A stretch of 6,190 nucleotides of DNA from NCBI GenBank assembly GCA_025774865.1, contig JALGZO010000541.1, forward strand, positions 1 to 6,190, read 5' to 3'. This document shows, piece by piece, positions 1 through 5,673 of this stretch (positions are counted from its first letter, which is position 1; every line of letters starts with the position of its first letter). Below the pieces are notes generated by a model. The model made no database searches. It worked only from the letters and a program-made list of their open reading frames with translations, and had not been told where the DNA came from. The DNA is from a bacterium. Lineage in GTDB: Bacteria; ARS69. A program made the translations under genes and the position numbers.

Positions 1-802
1 CCCCGAGCTCGTGGGACAACAGGAAGTCGCCGTCTGCGTCGGCACGAACCGTCGGCGCCGGTTGCGACAGCAGCACGGCCCGATATCCCACGGCGTCGAG
101 GAACTCGCCGCGGTCCGCGTCGACGAACTTCACGGTCCGACCTCGGCTCCAGACGGAAACCGTGCCGCCGGCGTCGGGGACCCACTTCCGCTCGCCGGCG
201 AGCCCGATCCCGCCGCTCGCGCCCGCCATCTGCTCCGCGCTCAACACCGTGCCCGCCTCCCGCTGCCAGAGCGGAAAGCTGGCCCCGGATCCCGGGTGAA
301 AGATGCCGACGCGAGTGTCCTCGATCAGCGTGCGCCAGAGCGCTTCCGTCCCGAGCTCCACGCGAAGATGCGGATTCTTCGACTGGATCGTGGCCACCGC
401 CTCACCCGTTCGCAGGTCGAAGACCCAAAGGTCGACGGTGGCGAGACCTTCTACCCCGTAACGACCCGCGACGAAGAGCCCCACGTCGGCGGCCATGTCG
501 TGGAGCAGGCCGACTCCGTGTACGAGCGGGTAGTGATGGAGGATTCTCTCCCCTTCGAGAAGAAAGATCCCGCCGGATTCCGGCACGTGAATGACGACCC
601 GATTGCTCTCGGGAACGATCGCGAACGGGGACGGCACGAGGATCGTGCCGCTCTCGTCCGGCTCGACGGTGACGGAGACACGGGCGTACACGTCTCCGGA
701 GACGACCGAATCCGCGGCGGGAGCGGAGCCGGCCAAGAGGCCGGACCCGATGAGGAAGACCAGCGCGGGCCGCGACGTCGCGGGCAAGCCGAAGCGAGGC
801 AT
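1..802 (-). CDS. Exported protein of unknown function, possibly beta-propeller-like (partial, C-terminus beyond left edge)
   Basis: This frame has no stop before the left edge; 267 residues are visible. Residues 1-29 look like a signal peptide: MPRFGLPATSRPA, a hydrophobic core LVFLIGSGLLAG, and A-P-A before Ala30. The mature part is rich in short beta-prone segments such as RVVIHVPESGGIFLLEG, DVGLFVAGRYG, VDLWVFDLRTGE and GTVSVWSRGRTVKFVDAD. They suggest repeated blades of a beta-propeller, but I cannot assign a family. ATG 802 is the only ATG, GTG or TTG between the upstream in-frame stop (958-956) and the signal peptide, so the start is well defined. There is no Shine-Dalgarno: a C6 tract (808-803) directly precedes the ATG. 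The gene lies downstream of the TPR/sigma-54 activator gene, the half-site cluster and the hairpin at 838-863, and may be the activator's target; that link is inference. Codon use, with G or C at most third positions, supports real coding in this frame. Confidence 0.8.
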   Translation of the reverse strand, partial: MPRFGLPATSRPALVFLIGSGLLAGSAPAADSVVSGDVYARVSVTVEPDESGTILVPSPFAIVPESNRVVIHVPESGGIFLLEGERILHHYPLVHGVGLLHDMAADVGLFVAGRYGVEGLATVDLWVFDLRTGEAVATIQSKNPHLRVELGTEALWRTLIEDTRVGIFHPGSGASFPLWQREAGTVLSAEQMAGASGGIGLAGERKWVPDAGGTVSVWSRGRTVKFVDADRGEFLDAVGYRAVLLSQPAPTVRADADGDFLLSHELG

Positions 803-837
803 GGGGGGATGGTACGTAGTGAAACGAAGCCGAGAAA

Positions 838-863
838 GGGGGAAGCGACGAATCGCTTCCCCC
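838..863 (-). terminator. Strong terminator-like hairpin just before the exported-protein gene (possible attenuator)
   Basis: A perfect 11-bp inverted repeat is present. On the minus strand the arm GGGGGAAGCGA (863-853) is followed by a TTCG tetraloop (852-849) and the arm TCGCTTCCCCC (848-838). The next bases read TTTCTCGGCTTCGTTTC, a broken T-rich tail. This is intrinsic-terminator architecture on the minus strand only; the plus strand lacks T after the stem. It ends 35 nt before the ATG at 802, too close for a full promoter in between, which makes a leader attenuator plausible. A near copy of its first arm, GGGGAGCGA, occurs upstream at 990-982 and could compete for the second arm. Confidence 0.6.
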
Positions 864-1013
864 TGACGACGCGTGATTCGTGTTGCCTCGGCAGGCGCCG
901 GGCCGGCATTCGCGAGTACTTGCCGGTGATCGACGCCTCCGAGCTCGGTCCGGCCTCATGAGACTCGAACCCTTCCCGTTTTCGCTCCCCTGGTAACGAA
1001 ATCGACCCGGCGT

Positions 1014-1030
1014 CCCCCCCGAGTGGGGGG
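1014..1030 (-). repeat. G7/C6 hairpin
   Basis: A run of seven C (1014-1020) is separated by GAGT (1021-1024) from a run of six G (1025-1030), giving a 6-bp GC-only stem with a 4-nt loop. No T-tract follows on either strand, so it is not an obvious terminator. On the minus-strand RNA its G7 run could also pair with the C6 run directly before the ATG at 802. Confidence 0.4.
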
Positions 1031-1058
1031 TGAGTCCCCTCGCTGTGAACCGCGCAGG

Positions 1059-1080
1059 CTCACCGGAAGCCTCCGATGAG
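1059..1080 (-). repeat. 9-bp RNA hairpin with tetraloop (minus-strand transcript)
   Basis: The minus strand reads CTCATCGGA, then loop GGCT, then TCCGGTGAG. All nine positions pair in RNA if one G-U wobble is allowed (1063 with 1076). In a plus-strand transcript the same position would be an A-C mismatch, so the structure favours minus-strand transcription. The distal arm can alternatively pair with CTCACC at 1034-1029. Confidence 0.45.
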
Positions 1081-1081
1081 T

Positions 1082-1118
1082 GGGACGGCGAAGGAGCGGC
1101 CGGCTTGCCGAGGGTCCC
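1082..1118 (-). repeat. Possible RNA hairpin in the intergenic leader
   Basis: GGGA (1082-1085) pairs with TCCC (1115-1118). CGGC (1086-1089) pairs with GCCG (1107-1110), and after a one-base bulge AAG (1091-1093) pairs with CTT (1104-1106). This leaves a 10-nt loop and a 4-nt bulge (1111-1114). It could fold in RNA, but GC-rich DNA makes such stems often. Confidence 0.35.
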
Positions 1119-1280
1119 GGTTCGTCGCGACCGCCCCTCCCCTACGCTGTCCACTTTTCCCCGAAGGGAGCTTCTGCCGACCGGGTCCGGGTCGGGTCCG
1201 CGCAATGACGACGGACGACCTTGATCAGAGCAATCCGCGGGCCGGAAACGAACGCGGAACGGGCGCGGCGCGGCGGAGAT

Positions 1281-1383: not shown

Positions 1384-1434
1384 GTGTCCAGGAGGCTGGA
1401 CAGGTGTCCAACGCTCCCGGGGAGGCTGGACACC
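1384..1434. promoter_or_regulatory. Cluster of TGTCCA/TGGACA half-sites (candidate operator or enhancer)
   Basis: Four exact half-sites lie within 48 bp: TGTCCA at 1385-1390, TGGACA at 1397-1402, TGTCCA at 1405-1410 and TGGACA at 1427-1432. The first pair is a dyad with a 6-bp spacer; the second has a 16-bp spacer and 8-bp arms (GGTGTCCA and TGGACACC). Equal-orientation half-sites are 20 bp and 30 bp apart, which would put them on the same helical face. GGAGGC precedes TGGACA in both units, so a duplication is visible. A degenerate fifth half-site, TGGACG, is at 1373-1378. The location, downstream of a Fis-HTH activator gene and about 90-140 bp before a weak -24/-12 element, suits an upstream activating sequence. 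The binding protein is inferred. Confidence 0.55.
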
Positions 1435-1553: not shown

Positions 1554-3929
1554 CTAGGCGGCCGCGTCCGACACCGCGCGCACTCGAACCGCGGCGGTCT
1601 CCCTCCCGATCCCGTACTTCGACATCTTCGTATACAGCGTCTGCCGACTGATCCCGAGCTCGCGCGCCGCGCGGGAGCGGTTTCCGCCGGCATCCGACAG
1701 AGCCCGCACCACCGCTCGGCGTTCGGTTTCCTCGAGACTCGCGATCATGGGGCGAGGCCGTCGAGCCGCGTCCCGGATGCAGTCGGGCATCGCATCTACC
1801 GGGATAGGACCGCGCCCGAACGTCAGGAACGAAGCGCTCTCCGCGAGGTTCCGCAACTCCCGGACGTTCCCCGGCCACTCGTGAAGCTCCAGGAGTTCCC
1901 TCGCCGACGAGGACGCGGACCGTCCCGCGAACTGCTCGAACAGCAACCCGATGTCCCCCTTCCGCTCCCGCAGCGCCGGCACCACGATCTCGAAGCCGCG
2001 CAGCCGGTAGAAGAGGTCCGGCAGGAACTCGCCGGAGTCGACGAGATCCGGAAGACTCCGGTTCGTCGCCGCGACGATACGTACGTTCACCTGGATCGGC
2101 GTCACCCCGCCCACGCGCCGAACCTCGCCGGCGTCTAGTACGCGTAGGAGCTTCGCCTGCAGCGTGAGCGGCGCCTTTCCGACTTCGTCCAGAAAGACCG
2201 TCCCCTTGTTCGCCGCTTCGAAGATCCCCGCCTTGTCGCAGATCGCCCCGGTGAACGCTCCCTTCACGTGGCCGAACAGCTCGGCCTCGAGGAGCGTTTC
2301 CGTGAGAGCCGCGCAGTTGACAGCCAGGAACGGTTTGCCGCTCCGCGCACTCGCTCCGTGAATCGCACGAGCGAAGAGCTCCTTGCCGGTGCCGGTTTCT
2401 CCAGTGACGAGCACCGGGATGTCCGACGGCGCGATCCGGCGCGCCCGCTCGATCGCTTCTCGCATCACGTCCGAACCGGTGATGATCTCGCCGAAGGGAT
2501 CGTCCGAGCTCCCGGCGGCCCCAGCGATGCTCGCATTCTCTCCGGACGCGGTCGCGAGAGCTTCCGCGGCCTTCGCCGCTTCGCGCTCGGCGCCGAGCCC
2601 ACGAAGGCACCGCTCGGCCTGACGGAGCAGCGGTCCGGCGAGGGGAAGATCCGTCACGCTCTCGGCCAGCAGCTGGGCGAGAGCAGCCTGGCTGCGCCCG
2701 GTCTCGAACGGCATCGAGAGCTCGCGGAACACCTCGACGGCAAACTCGAGGTGCGGGCGAGCTTCGTCGCGCCGATTGCGACGCGCCAGCACGGTGCCCA
2801 GCGCGCGACGCGCCACCGCCTCGCAGAAGCGATAGTCACAACTGCGGACGAGCGCGACCGCCTCATCCAGCAAATCGAGCGCGCGAGCGTCCGGATCCCC
2901 CAGCCCCTCTTCGGCCAGTGCGAGTCGCCAGGCCGTATCGGCCACGGGCTCGCCCTCGGGCGACGATTCCCTCGCGAGCTCCAGAGTCTCGACGAGGATG
3001 TGCCGCGCCTCCGTCCAGTCGCCGCGCTCGATGGCGGCTTCTCCGAGGAGCTGACCGGTCACGATGAGATCGTGGGTCAAGCCCGCTTCCTCCGCCAGAC
3101 GGCGCGCCCTCTCGAGCTCCGGCCGCGGATCTTGGCCGCGGTAAAGCGCGAGCCGGCCGCGTTGAATCGCGACCGCGGACACCAGGCGCCGATCTCCGGA
3201 TTTCTCCGCACGTTCATGGCAGCGGGTCAGCAGGGCTTCGGTCTGCTGCCAATCTCCCGTGTGAAACTCGTCGATGGCGAGCGCGAAGAGCTCACGCGAG
3301 ATGTGCGTGTCGCTGCCGCACCGTTCGTGAGCTTCGAGCGCGCGGCGATGAAACCCCTTCGCTTCCTGAAACCGCCCCGACTGCCAGAGCAGGAAGCCGA
3401 GATTCGAGGCGCAGAGTCCCATCTCGTGATCGTTTCCTTCGCGGCGAGCCGCCGCCATCGCGTCGGTGTAGTCCTCGCGCGCGTCGTCGAGACGGCCGAG
3501 GCGCCGGTAGCCGTGGCCCCGGCAGGTGAGCGCTTGCGCCAGTCGGGAGTTCTCTCCGGTGTTCCGGAGTTCTTCCCACGCCGCGGTCGCGCTCCGCACG
3601 GTGTCTTCGTATTGTCCACGGTTGAGTGCGATGTAGCCACGCACGCAGTGCACGGCCCCCCGGGTCGCCGGCAGCACTCTCTCCATGTCCAGGTTCTCGA
3701 CCGGCGCAAGCGCCAGATCCGCCGAGTCGATGTCTCCGAGCTCCACGAAGCACTCCGCGACTCGCACGCGAAGTCCGGCTTCCTGATCTGGTGTCAGGTC
3801 ACCGCCGCGAAGCTCCATGGCTTCAGTGTAGGCCTCGATCGCTTCTCGGAAGCAGCTGGCAGCGCGACTGGCGTCACCTCTGCGCAGCGCATCGCGGAAG
3901 CGATGGAAAGGCAGTGGGTACCAGGTCAT
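1554..3929 (-). CDS. TPR-domain sigma-54-dependent transcriptional activator (AAA+ bEBP, Fis-type HTH)
   Basis: This 791-residue cytoplasmic regulator would activate RNA polymerase carrying sigma-54. Residues 1 to about 455 form helical TPR-like repeats of roughly 40 residues; the best are around 131-200, with RLGRLDDAREDYTDAM and QSGRFQEAKGFHRRALEA. Residues about 481-715 are the AAA+ domain: Walker A GETGTGKE (510-517), the sigma-54-contacting GAFTGA loop (557-562), Walker B GTVFLDE (576-582), ATN (621-623) and WPGNVREL (685-692). A Fis-type helix-turn-helix lies at about 742-774 (GGNRSRAARELGISRQTLY). No receiver, GAF or PAS domain is present, so the TPR array is the likely sensor. One oddity: the usual FRxDL of the arginine-finger region reads FLPDL, with Leu636 where an Arg is usual, while Arg642 is kept. 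The start is set by GGAGG 9 nt upstream and overlaps the preceding stop. The stop is TAG at 1556-1554. The domain calls are firm; the ligand and target genes are unknown. Confidence 0.95.
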   Translation of the reverse strand: MTWYPLPFHRFRDALRRGDASRAASCFREAIEAYTEAMELRGGDLTPDQEAGLRVRVAECFVELGDIDSADLALAPVENLDMERVLPATRGAVHCVRGYIALNRGQYEDTVRSATAAWEELRNTGENSRLAQALTCRGHGYRRLGRLDDAREDYTDAMAAARREGNDHEMGLCASNLGFLLWQSGRFQEAKGFHRRALEAHERCGSDTHISRELFALAIDEFHTGDWQQTEALLTRCHERAEKSGDRRLVSAVAIQRGRLALYRGQDPRPELERARRLAEEAGLTHDLIVTGQLLGEAAIERGDWTEARHILVETLELARESSPEGEPVADTAWRLALAEEGLGDPDARALDLLDEAVALVRSCDYRFCEAVARRALGTVLARRNRRDEARPHLEFAVEVFRELSMPFETGRSQAALAQLLAESVTDLPLAGPLLRQAERCLRGLGAEREAAKAAEALATASGENASIAGAAGSSDDPFGEIITGSDVMREAIERARRIAPSDIPVLVTGETGTGKELFARAIHGASARSGKPFLAVNCAALTETLLEAELFGHVKGAFTGAICDKAGIFEAANKGTVFLDEVGKAPLTLQAKLLRVLDAGEVRRVGGVTPIQVNVRIVAATNRSLPDLVDSGEFLPDLFYRLRGFEIVVPALRERKGDIGLLFEQFAGRSASSSARELLELHEWPGNVRELRNLAESASFLTFGRGPIPVDAMPDCIRDAARRPRPMIASLEETERRAVVRALSDAGGNRSRAARELGISRQTLYTKMSKYGIGRETAAVRVRAVSDAAA

Positions 3930-4222
3930 CGTGCAGGTCCTCCGAAGTTGAGCGAGCGCATGATGCGCAGCAGGCGAAGAAGGAGATTCTGCGATCGGTC
4001 GACCGGGGCCGCGACGATCCGTCGGTTCTCGCCGACGCTCTTCTCGACGACTACCTGATCTGGCTCACGGGGAGCCACGATGTTGGGGACTTCGGGCTCC
4101 GAGTCGTCCACGGCGAACTGCTTGCGGACCAGCCAGTCCGACGCCTGCACCTCACTCGGGAGAACCCAGACTGCCGCCACGGCGAGCACGGCCAGGATCC
4201 AGGATGTATTTCGGGTATGCAT
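3926..4222 (-). CDS. Small exported protein, unknown function, coupled to downstream TPR regulator
   Basis: This is a 98-residue protein I do not recognise. Residues 1-27 look like a Sec signal peptide: a short basic N-region (MHTR), a hydrophobic core (WILAVLAVAAVWVL) and a V-Q-A cleavage motif before Ser28. The mature part would be about 71 residues with no cysteine. It has an acidic, proline-containing middle (about 38-62) and a basic amphipathic C-terminal helix (LLLRLLRIMRSLNF, about 80-93). The start at ATG 4222 is supported by AAAGGTGG (4239-4232), 9 nt upstream. Its TGA stop (3928-3926) overlaps the ATG of the regulator as ATGA, which suggests translational coupling and joint function. 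It could be a signal precursor, a periplasmic ligand, or a product whose output the regulator monitors. The frame continues open upstream inside mgtE, but that part has no coding character. The gene is well supported; its role is inferred only from context. Confidence 0.8.
   Translation of the reverse strand: MHTRNTSWILAVLAVAAVWVLPSEVQASDWLVRKQFAVDDSEPEVPNIVAPREPDQVVVEKSVGENRRIVAAPVDRSQNLLLRLLRIMRSLNFGGPAR
3938..3944 (-). promoter_or_regulatory. Internal Shine-Dalgarno (CGGAGGA) for the TPR/sigma-54 regulator
   Basis: The minus strand reads CGGAGGA with the GGAGG core at 3943-3939, 9 nt before the ATG at 3929. It lies inside the last codons of the small exported-protein gene. Together with the ATGA stop/start overlap it fixes the regulator's start and indicates coupled translation of the two genes. 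Confidence 0.85.
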
Positions 4223-4326
4223 GGAAAACGACCACCTTTCTGTCCTGTACGAGGAACGCTCCCACTTTATGAACAGGCCGCCGGGGCTGAAAGGGGGCGT
4301 CCGACGAATATCGGCGAGGCGACGGC
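4223..4326 (-). promoter_or_regulatory. 104-nt gap between mgtE and the small exported-protein gene; promoter not clear
   Basis: The gap includes an AT-richer patch, CATAAA at 4271-4266, which matches TATAAT at 4 of 6 positions. CTTTCA at 4293-4288 is a poor -35 at 16-bp spacing. No -24/-12 element and no convincing terminator are visible. A separate weak promoter for the small gene and regulator is possible, as is read-through from mgtE. Confidence 0.2.
4232..4239 (-). promoter_or_regulatory. Ribosome binding site of the small exported protein gene
   Basis: The minus strand reads AAAGGTGG, ending 9 nt before the ATG at 4222. This supports that ATG as the start of a frame that is otherwise open far upstream. 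It is a direct sequence observation; ribosome use is inferred. Confidence 0.7.
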
Positions 4327-5673
4327 TCAGCGACCGAGGATCGAGGTCGCGAGCGAGAGGTAGATCAGGATTCCCAGGATGTCGTTGGAGGTCGTGACGA
4401 AGGGACCGGTGGCGAGCGCCGGATCGATCTGCACCCGATCCATGGCGAGCGGCACAAAAGCGCCCACGCTCGTCGAGATCAGGATCACGGCCAGCATCGC
4501 GAGCCCGACGACCGCGCCCAGGCGCATGTCGCCCCACCAGAACGATGCGGCCACGAAAATCAGAGCCGCGCACACGAGCCCGGTGATGATCGAGACGCCC
4601 ACCTCGCGGGTAAGGCGCCGGACCGCGTCGCGGGGTCGAATCTCTTCGGTCGCGAGCGCTCGCACCATCACGGCACTCGACTGGATGGCGACGTTGCCCC
4701 CCATGGCCATGATCACGGGGACGAAGAACGCGAGCGTGATCACCGCCGCCAGGTCGTCCTCGTAGCGCGAGAGCACGACCGCGGAGAGGACCCCCCCGAG
4801 GAGGCCCGTGACGAGCCACGGAAGACGGATCGCGGCCTTCCTCCAGACGGAGTCCTCGCGGAACTCCTCCTCGTCGGTGCCGGCGAGCCGCGAGTAGTCC
4901 TCGGCCGCCTCGTCCTGGATCACGTCGACGATATCGTCGACCGTGATCCGCCCCAGCAGGACTCCTTCGCGATCGACCACCGGGAGCGAGGGAAGGTCGT
5001 ACTTCTGGAAGATCTGAGCGACCTCTTCCTGATCCAGCTCGGCCTGTACCGACAGGATCTCCTCGTCCATGACGGAACGGACGGTGTCGGAAGGGTTCGC
5101 GAGGATGAGCCGGGGCACCGGCAGCCGACCCACCAGCTTGCCCTCGCTCGAGACGACGAACACGTAGAAGAAGTCCTCGCGGACGTCGCCCCACGCAAGG
5201 CGGATCTTCTCGATCGCGCGCTGGATGGTCCGGTCCTCGCGGACCGAGACGACCTCCAGCTGCATGATCCCGCCGGCGCAGTCTTCCGGATACGTGAGGA
5301 GCTGAGTTATTTCGCGGCGGTCGTCCTCTTCGAGGAGCTCGACGACTTCCACGGCCTTCTCTTCGTCGAGCTCGGAGACGACGTCGGCCGCGTCGTCGGA
5401 GTCCATCTCCTCGACGGCGTCCGCAATCTCGCGCGGCGTGAGCCGCTCCAGAACGTCTTCGCGAATCTCGTCACCGAGCTCCACGAGCACGTCGGCGGAG
5501 ATTTCTTCGGGGAGCTTCTTGAGGAGGTCGACGACCTGGTCGTCTTCCAGATGCTTCGCCGCCGAAGCGACGTCTGCCGCCGGGACCGTCTCCAGCTCTC
5601 GAAGGAGATCTGCGGCGTCACCCTCGAGGAGCGCAGAAATCCGCTCCGCCAGCTCGTCGGGTCGAATCTCCAT
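4327..5673 (-). CDS. mgtE: MgtE-type magnesium channel/transporter
   Basis: This is a complete 448-residue protein, the usual length for MgtE, a dimeric inner-membrane Mg2+ channel gated by cytoplasmic Mg2+. An acidic helical N domain (about residues 1-127) contains repeated 'LP/L-x-x-DVLVEL' and 'DDAADVVSEL' units. The YPEDCAGGIM motif (128-137) leads into two CBS domains (about 138-260). A connecting acidic stretch then precedes about five transmembrane helices (roughly 282-301, 309-325, 358-378, 385-409, 424-446). The conserved MAMGGNVAIQSS (322-333) and DPALATGPFVTTSNDILG (417-434) motifs are present. Asp431 aligns with the pore Mg2+-coordinating Asp432 of Thermus thermophilus MgtE, so the channel looks functional. 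The ATG start is preceded by GAAGG (5687-5683) at 9 nt spacing. The 60-nt gap to the DUF502 gene is too short for an M-box Mg2+ riboswitch, so none controls it locally. The stop is TGA at 4329-4327. Confidence 0.97.
   Translation of the reverse strand: MEIRPDELAERISALLEGDAADLLRELETVPAADVASAAKHLEDDQVVDLLKKLPEEISADVLVELGDEIREDVLERLTPREIADAVEEMDSDDAADVVSELDEEKAVEVVELLEEDDRREITQLLTYPEDCAGGIMQLEVVSVREDRTIQRAIEKIRLAWGDVREDFFYVFVVSSEGKLVGRLPVPRLILANPSDTVRSVMDEEILSVQAELDQEEVAQIFQKYDLPSLPVVDREGVLLGRITVDDIVDVIQDEAAEDYSRLAGTDEEEFREDSVWRKAAIRLPWLVTGLLGGVLSAVVLSRYEDDLAAVITLAFFVPVIMAMGGNVAIQSSAVMVRALATEEIRPRDAVRRLTREVGVSIITGLVCAALIFVAASFWWGDMRLGAVVGLAMLAVILISTSVGAFVPLAMDRVQIDPALATGPFVTTSNDILGILIYLSLATSILGR

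Follow-up and report, generated by a model that had tools for sequence, protein, structure and literature searches.

A candidate three-part regulatory cassette linking a small exported protein, a TPR-containing sigma-54 activator and a structured RNA

Cytoplasmic TPR regulators encoded next to small proteins with a Sec signal are known from the RRNPP systems (Rap-Phr, PlcR-PapR, NprR-NprX, AimR-AimP), which have so far been described from Firmicutes and their mobile elements and for which RRNPP_detector requires a receptor of 250–500 aa and a propeptide of 10–100 aa (PMC10075063). On the output side, LuxO of Vibrio is a bEBP that uses two UAS elements on the sigma-54 promoter of a regulatory RNA, Qrr (PMC10162802). 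The window analysed here, a stretch of 6,190 nucleotides that makes up one contig (G000:C545) of a high-GC genome, carries on its minus strand, in this order, DUF502, mgtE, a 98-aa ORF, the gene of a 791-aa activator, 751 nt of non-coding DNA and the gene of a 267-aa exported protein. As in RRNPP systems, an adjacent small protein with a predicted Sec signal accompanies a cytoplasmic TPR-containing regulator, and at 98 aa the small protein lies within the propeptide range. The receptor, in contrast, is a 791-aa sigma-54 AAA+ activator above the defining size, precursors of the family are often longer than 100 aa, and the small gene precedes and can overlap the receptor gene; membership of RRNPP is therefore not claimed.

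The arrangement is read here as a cassette of three parts, namely an exported microprotein, a cytoplasmic TPR-bEBP that would be translated together with it, and an adjacent UAS and sigma-54 promoter that would drive a structured RNA. The microprotein would serve as the TPR ligand gating the TPR-bEBP and hence the sigma-54 RNA, a reading to which a probability of roughly 55% is assigned.

The microprotein gene and its activator

The microprotein gene (P0001, 98 aa; 3926–4222, minus strand) is preceded by a strong Shine-Dalgarno sequence (GAAAGGTGG / AAAGGTGG; 4232–4239, minus strand) that is conserved in relatives, where it reads GAAAGGYGG or AGGAAGG. The predicted signal peptide covers about residues 1–27; by eye, a basic N-terminus leads into a hydrophobic core and then into EVQA-SD, an A-x-A-like cleavage region. 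The signal peptide is followed by the motif S-E-P-E-V-P, in which P43 and P46 are the conserved prolines, and by the C-terminal tail LLLRLLRIMRSLNFGGPAR. The ORF closes in an ATGA stop/start overlap with the activator gene P0002 (3926–3929, minus strand), as the initial annotation had described for a 98-residue signal-peptide protein, and through this overlap the two genes are probably translationally coupled. A TTC-N2-AAAGTGGRAGCGT-like box common to two genera is located 5' of the microprotein gene (4223–4290, minus strand, in the window; upstream of 1190 in L010). Farther upstream is mgtE (4327–5673, minus strand), a conserved neighbour that is not counted in the cassette. When P0001 alone served as the query of a tblastn-type search of 98 genomes, it matched nothing except the window; the family becomes visible only through synteny and then through an HMM.

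The activator (P0002, 791 aa; 1554–3929, minus strand), defined by its ORF, Pfam and an AF2 model, begins with a TPR array at residues 7–462 (2544–3911, minus strand), which is a candidate ligand-binding superhelix. The AAA+ sigma-54 activation domain follows at residues 478–722 (1764–2498, minus strand) with Walker A, Walker B and an intact GAFTGA at residues 557–562, and a Fis-type HTH occupies residues 731–772 near the C-terminus (1614–1739, minus strand). The Pfam matches (TPR_12 / TPR_MalT at about 89–363, Sigma54_activat at 482–648 and HTH_8 at 731–772) and the AF2 model (mean pLDDT 92), with unbroken TPR-like helices at 7–462 and then AAA+ and HTH, agree with each other and with the architecture originally proposed for this protein. 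RpoN is encoded in the window's genome, and a UAS with a −24/−12 promoter as target was recognized by sequence only; P0002 is, to judge from these features, a competent-looking bEBP.

Among solved structures, kinesin light chains are closest in sequence to the TPR part. The TPR model superposed with the peptide-binding TPRs of phage Phi3T Rap (Z 28.6) and NprR (26.9), a likeness to RRNPP receptors, and of LGN (28) and APPBP2 (31), and also with MalT domain III (27.9), so that the modelled fold, matching Rap, NprR, MalT, LGN and APPBP2 about equally well, does not discriminate. TPR domains commonly bind intracellular partners, and the same folds also bind non-secreted ones. This general property favours an explanation in which the TPR array of P0002 senses an unrelated cytoplasmic protein, the microprotein itself being an envelope product expressed alongside it, or else an autoregulated target. 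Within the C-terminal TPR helices, the conserved charged residues R286, E293, E297, D327, E331, R335, E369, R375 and E409 (or their consensus equivalents) might, speculatively, belong to a ligand-binding site that could accept the acidic motif. When the tails and the TPR helices were compared for charge complementarity in a simple test, none was found.

Recurrence of the pair and features of the small-protein family

For the window's phylum, five genomes were compared, all from one family. Searching the window's genome and its four relatives for the activator yielded two orthologues in synteny (68% and 58%) as well as ten other loci with a full-length TPR-EBP, among which one is a paralogue from the genome of the window itself. 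A small ORF lies directly upstream of the activator in 13/13 of the full-length TPR-EBPs of this phylum (window included), and each of the 13 combines a signal-peptide-like N-terminus with a common G[D/E]PxxP-type motif. The genes overlap at eight of these loci, six times through ATGA (window included) and twice through TGATG. An HMM built from the 13 small proteins detected two new members (E 4e-10 and 2e-5), both of which lie ahead of a further TPR-EBP, present only as its N-terminal part because the contig ends there. Two weaker matches, L055 and L059 (E above 0.01), were rejected as family members, being unrelated proteins when read.

An activator profile led to full-length TPR-EBPs in genomes whose taxonomy agrees with that of the window at no rank below domain. 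In a second phylum (that of G198, 47 genomes), such activators were present in 33 genomes, and a small signal-peptide protein accompanied them at 28 of 29 inspected loci (27 via an ORF scan and L135 via the HMM), a count with one doubtful case, L151. Most of these proteins carry GDPDxP, and one family has a GSPDETLxPP variant. All 28 HMM matches at E ≤ 1e-8 in this phylum are located directly upstream of a TPR-EBP, two of them with the EBP cut by a contig end. No HMM-detected partner accompanied 15 of the 52 second-phylum TPR-EBPs, a figure to be read with the shortness of the HMM and the placement of several of these activators in a paralogue group that is more divergent. The two genes do not overlap at most second-phylum loci and are separated by tens of nucleotides. 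The pair was also found at 2/2 loci in the phylum of G102 and at 5/5 in that of G138; in a fifth lineage (L100), the ORF encodes a signal peptide but lacks the motif.

As a control, 33 non-TPR EBPs from similar genomes were inspected; nine passed the crude signal test, several with apparent histidine kinase fragments, and the one motif match was in a spurious frame. The cut-offs for signal and motif were set heuristically, and because of the kinship among the loci their counts do not amount to independent trials; on this comparison, the association between the small protein and TPR-EBPs is far beyond chance. High-GC DNA yields many spurious ORFs, and the small ORF might be read as one of them, but its Shine-Dalgarno sequence, signal peptide, motif, tail and position are conserved across phyla, and the HMM from 13 sequences finds its new members beside TPR-EBPs. 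Such a chance origin is exceedingly improbable and is refuted by the comparative data.

Where one genome contains several paralogous activators, each has a microprotein copy of its own, and no microprotein gene without an activator occurred among the strong HMM matches. Because none occurs alone among these matches, the microprotein is, as far as gene content tells, dedicated to the activator and is not a general envelope protein. The same two findings, together with a gene position that nearly always precedes the activator across phyla, argue against the microprotein being only a co-expressed product beside a TPR array that senses something else, and that explanation is considered unlikely. 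Conservation of the small ORF beside homologous regulators had been set beforehand as a test of the pair, and recurrence in at least four phyla answers it: by this genomic comparison, the pair is dedicated and conserved. The peptide/TPR signalling pair suggested in the initial annotation is thus upheld as a dedicated pair by its recurrence and shared motif, while a place among RRNPP systems is not, given the 791-aa receptor.

Among 44 family members, an A.A or V.A site was found in 34 and the motif, by a loose pattern, in 42. The predicted signal peptides stand out both on inspection and in a hydrophobic-core test, the family genes have strong Shine-Dalgarno sequences in front of them, and the small proteins of relatives measure 82–123 aa. 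Little is conserved outside the signal peptide, motif and tail, and the linker is variable, with Gly, Ser and Pro frequently abundant. Searches of the small proteins with Pfam, NCBIfam and PADLOC returned nothing significant, and no Pfam or NCBIfam family fits them. Sequence pairs were saturated in the dN/dS analysis, so that codon-position counts gave only a weak third-position excess.

The C-terminal tail is more hydrophobic than the remainder of the protein in 41/44 members, rich in aromatic residues (16% vs 5%), cationic on average and in most cases Arg-rich; one subgroup (L013, L020, L022) has acidic tails. An amphipathic helix is not claimed for the tails, whose hydrophobic moment is not above that of shuffles. 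The tails are well conserved within a lineage (e.g., VWMWRLRVVLQSLRSFYFRF and its relatives) and different between lineages, and SLRSFYLRF-type tails are conserved between genera. The search for a conserved C-terminal segment in these proteins therefore ended in a tail kept within lineages in addition to the common motif.

These features bear on an RRNPP-like route, in which the microprotein would be exported and trimmed to a short peptide, either C-terminal or GDPxxP, which after re-import would occupy the TPR groove and switch the EBP. The Sec-type signal peptide, the adjacency of the genes and the Rap/NprR-like TPR fold are consistent with it, and the window pair agrees with four of the five features used by RRNPP_detector (PMC10075063), the signal peptide being judged by inspection only. 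However, the receptor has 791 aa against 250–500, the precursors reach 82–123 aa, the tails are kept between genera and are not diversified as pherotypes, and no importer or protease gene is conserved beside the pair among the compared loci. Peptide communication of this kind is accordingly regarded as rather improbable.

Predicted promoter and structured RNA 3' of the activator

Alignment of the non-coding stretch of three orthologues uncovered a conserved block 3' of the activator. Its candidate UAS (1385–1433, minus strand) comprises TGTCCAGCCTCCTGGACA (1385–1402), TTGGACACCTGTCCAG (1396–1411) and GTGTCCAG..TTGGACAC (1404–1433), which are inverted repeats built from TGTCCAG/CTGGACA and situated 140–160 nt upstream of the promoter, a spacing usual for enhancers. 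A search of the genome for further copies of the exact UAS palindrome returned the single occurrence in the window. The predicted sigma-54 −24/−12 promoter, CGGCCCGCGGATTGCT, has the form GG-N10-GC (1229–1244, minus strand), lies about 310 nt 3' of the activator and keeps the same position in orthologues. It would direct transcription of a conserved structured RNA of about 387 nt (832–1218, minus strand), whose start is deduced from the promoter. The RNA region is 70–73% conserved among the three orthologues, with 70–81% identity across relatives, and ends in an intrinsic terminator with a perfect stem, GGGGGAAGCGATTCGTCGCTTCCCCC followed by TTTCTC (832–863, minus strand), which was seen by eye and missed by a consensus terminator scan. 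About 30 nt beyond the terminator begins the gene of the 267-aa exported protein (2–802, minus strand; cut by the contig end), which is syntenic in three genera and has no Pfam match. Equivalents of this gene stand 3' of the RNA at L072:9113–9757 and L073:10343–10987.

A sigma-54 site scoring at least 21.5 of 25 was found at +100 to +420 after the EBP at 28 of 37 loci from four phyla, compared with 2.2% of random windows. The conserved RNA, which together with its UAS and promoter had been missed in the earlier description of this locus, is the likely output of the activator; the conserved promoter and the RNA with its terminator, as read from the DNA, would suit a non-coding RNA expressed from a bEBP promoter.

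In a second paralogue group of the window's phylum (L074–L083), microproteins are present, some with acidic tails, and a 3' sigma-54 site was found at 0/10 loci. The targets of these activators must lie elsewhere, because no such site follows their genes. At L079:3596–5820 (activator strand), directly 3' of the TPR-EBP, three tandem genes encode exported proteins of about 240 aa with the motif S-V-S-Y-[FY]-N-x-C-T-G-W-[IVL]-W, possibly the target operon of that paralogue. A second unit of UAS, sigma-54 promoter, RNA and exported protein is located in a relative at L122 (G002:C34; 1480–1960, minus strand), its RNA being 81% identical, and is preceded by a hybrid histidine kinase, with no TPR-EBP there. 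It is a possible in-trans target, and its position behind the hybrid histidine kinase suggests that the promoter–RNA unit is a separable target.

The f174 family of the second phylum repeats this geometry: a near-perfect TGGCACGN4TGCW site follows the activator by 242–354 nt at all eight fully read loci, and the clearest loci (L159, L164) have inverted repeats of the GTGTCACC/GGTGACAC type at −143 and −212. The f174 RNA is about 430–450 nt long with a terminator and a strongly conserved, covarying 3' part, and its covariance model recovered a held-out locus at E 1e-25. The 3' domain (L159:6511–6635 and equivalents; alignment A10) contains CAAAAAAAC..ATACGCCCGGTCAACGAAGCCGG, two copies of CCCGGTCA, a covarying stem and the terminator. 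Since the RNA is not followed by a lipoprotein gene at several f174 loci, the RNA, and not the lipoprotein, looks like the constant output in this family. The f269 family has its own repeats (about −225/−125) and its own conserved RNA, which at L144–L149 lies about 100–300 nt after the sigma-54 site and reads GGGCCGCGGACGATGGGGAGCTCTCAG..GGACATAAAGGCTCC..GTCCGCGGCCC with a closing stem. Rfam gave no match for the window, f174 or f269 RNA. The f174 covariance model found no match in the window and f269 RNAs, so homology of the RNAs across lineages is not established.

Proposed switch and relation to known systems

In the proposed cassette, the HTH would bind the inverted repeats and the AAA+ ring would open the adjacent promoter, while the TPR superhelix may read the co-encoded microprotein via its G[D/E]PxxP segment and/or its C-terminal tail. 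Such reading would switch the AAA+ ring, toward either activation or inhibition. Because the tails are conserved across genera and the cassette includes no importer or protease, we lean slightly to a route in which the unexported microprotein is sensed inside the cell, so that the switch would report export or envelope status. When Sec is limiting, the precursor would stay in the cytoplasm at its site of translation, bind the TPR-EBP and switch the sigma-54 RNA. The translation-coupled overlap with the receptor accords with this route, as do a dedicated small secretory protein conserved mostly in signal peptide, motif and tail, and the exported proteins encoded downstream of the activator in several lineages; the spaced, non-overlapping genes at most second-phylum loci speak against it. 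To our knowledge, no sensor of exactly this design has been described. Export-status sensing is doubtful in itself and slightly preferred to RRNPP-type communication. The broader proposal, a cross-phylum system in which GDPxxP-family microproteins are ligands of TPR sigma-54 activators that switch on dedicated new non-coding RNAs, is put forward tentatively, as somewhat less than an even chance.

Several described regulators share single elements with the cassette. Its TPR part resembles MalT, through domain III, and the kinesin light chains, which bind cargo peptides; MalT senses maltotriose and is not sigma-54-dependent. FlgM-like regulators follow the same export-reporting logic, in that an intracellular transcription factor is informed through the export of a small protein, whereas the cassette differs in export route, target and sigma factor. 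A literature search, with most subscription journals outside its scope, returned no paper on TPR-bEBPs with exported microproteins. RRNPP_detector would miss the cassette, because it was run, as published, on complete genomes of Firmicutes and viruses, with a receptor of 250–500 aa as a requirement (PMC10075063).

If the pair works as proposed, RRNPP-like logic would reach sigma-54 activators and lineages without known peptide signalling, and a peptide- or protein-responsive bEBP would exist outside Firmicutes. The comparison brings in one family of microproteins and several of RNAs, all new and all linked to a single regulatory cassette, which, with two proteins, one promoter and one RNA, is small and can be tested in a standard host. 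Like LuxO with Qrr, the cassette would join a bEBP to a UAS, a sigma-54 promoter and a putative RNA. LuxO, by contrast, has a receiver domain fed by a phosphorelay, a domain that Pfam did not find in P0002, and the cassette has instead a TPR array and an exported microprotein, while its RNAs are longer (about 390–450 nt) and unrelated. By analogy of logic, the closest described systems are RRNPP for the input and LuxO-Qrr for the output.
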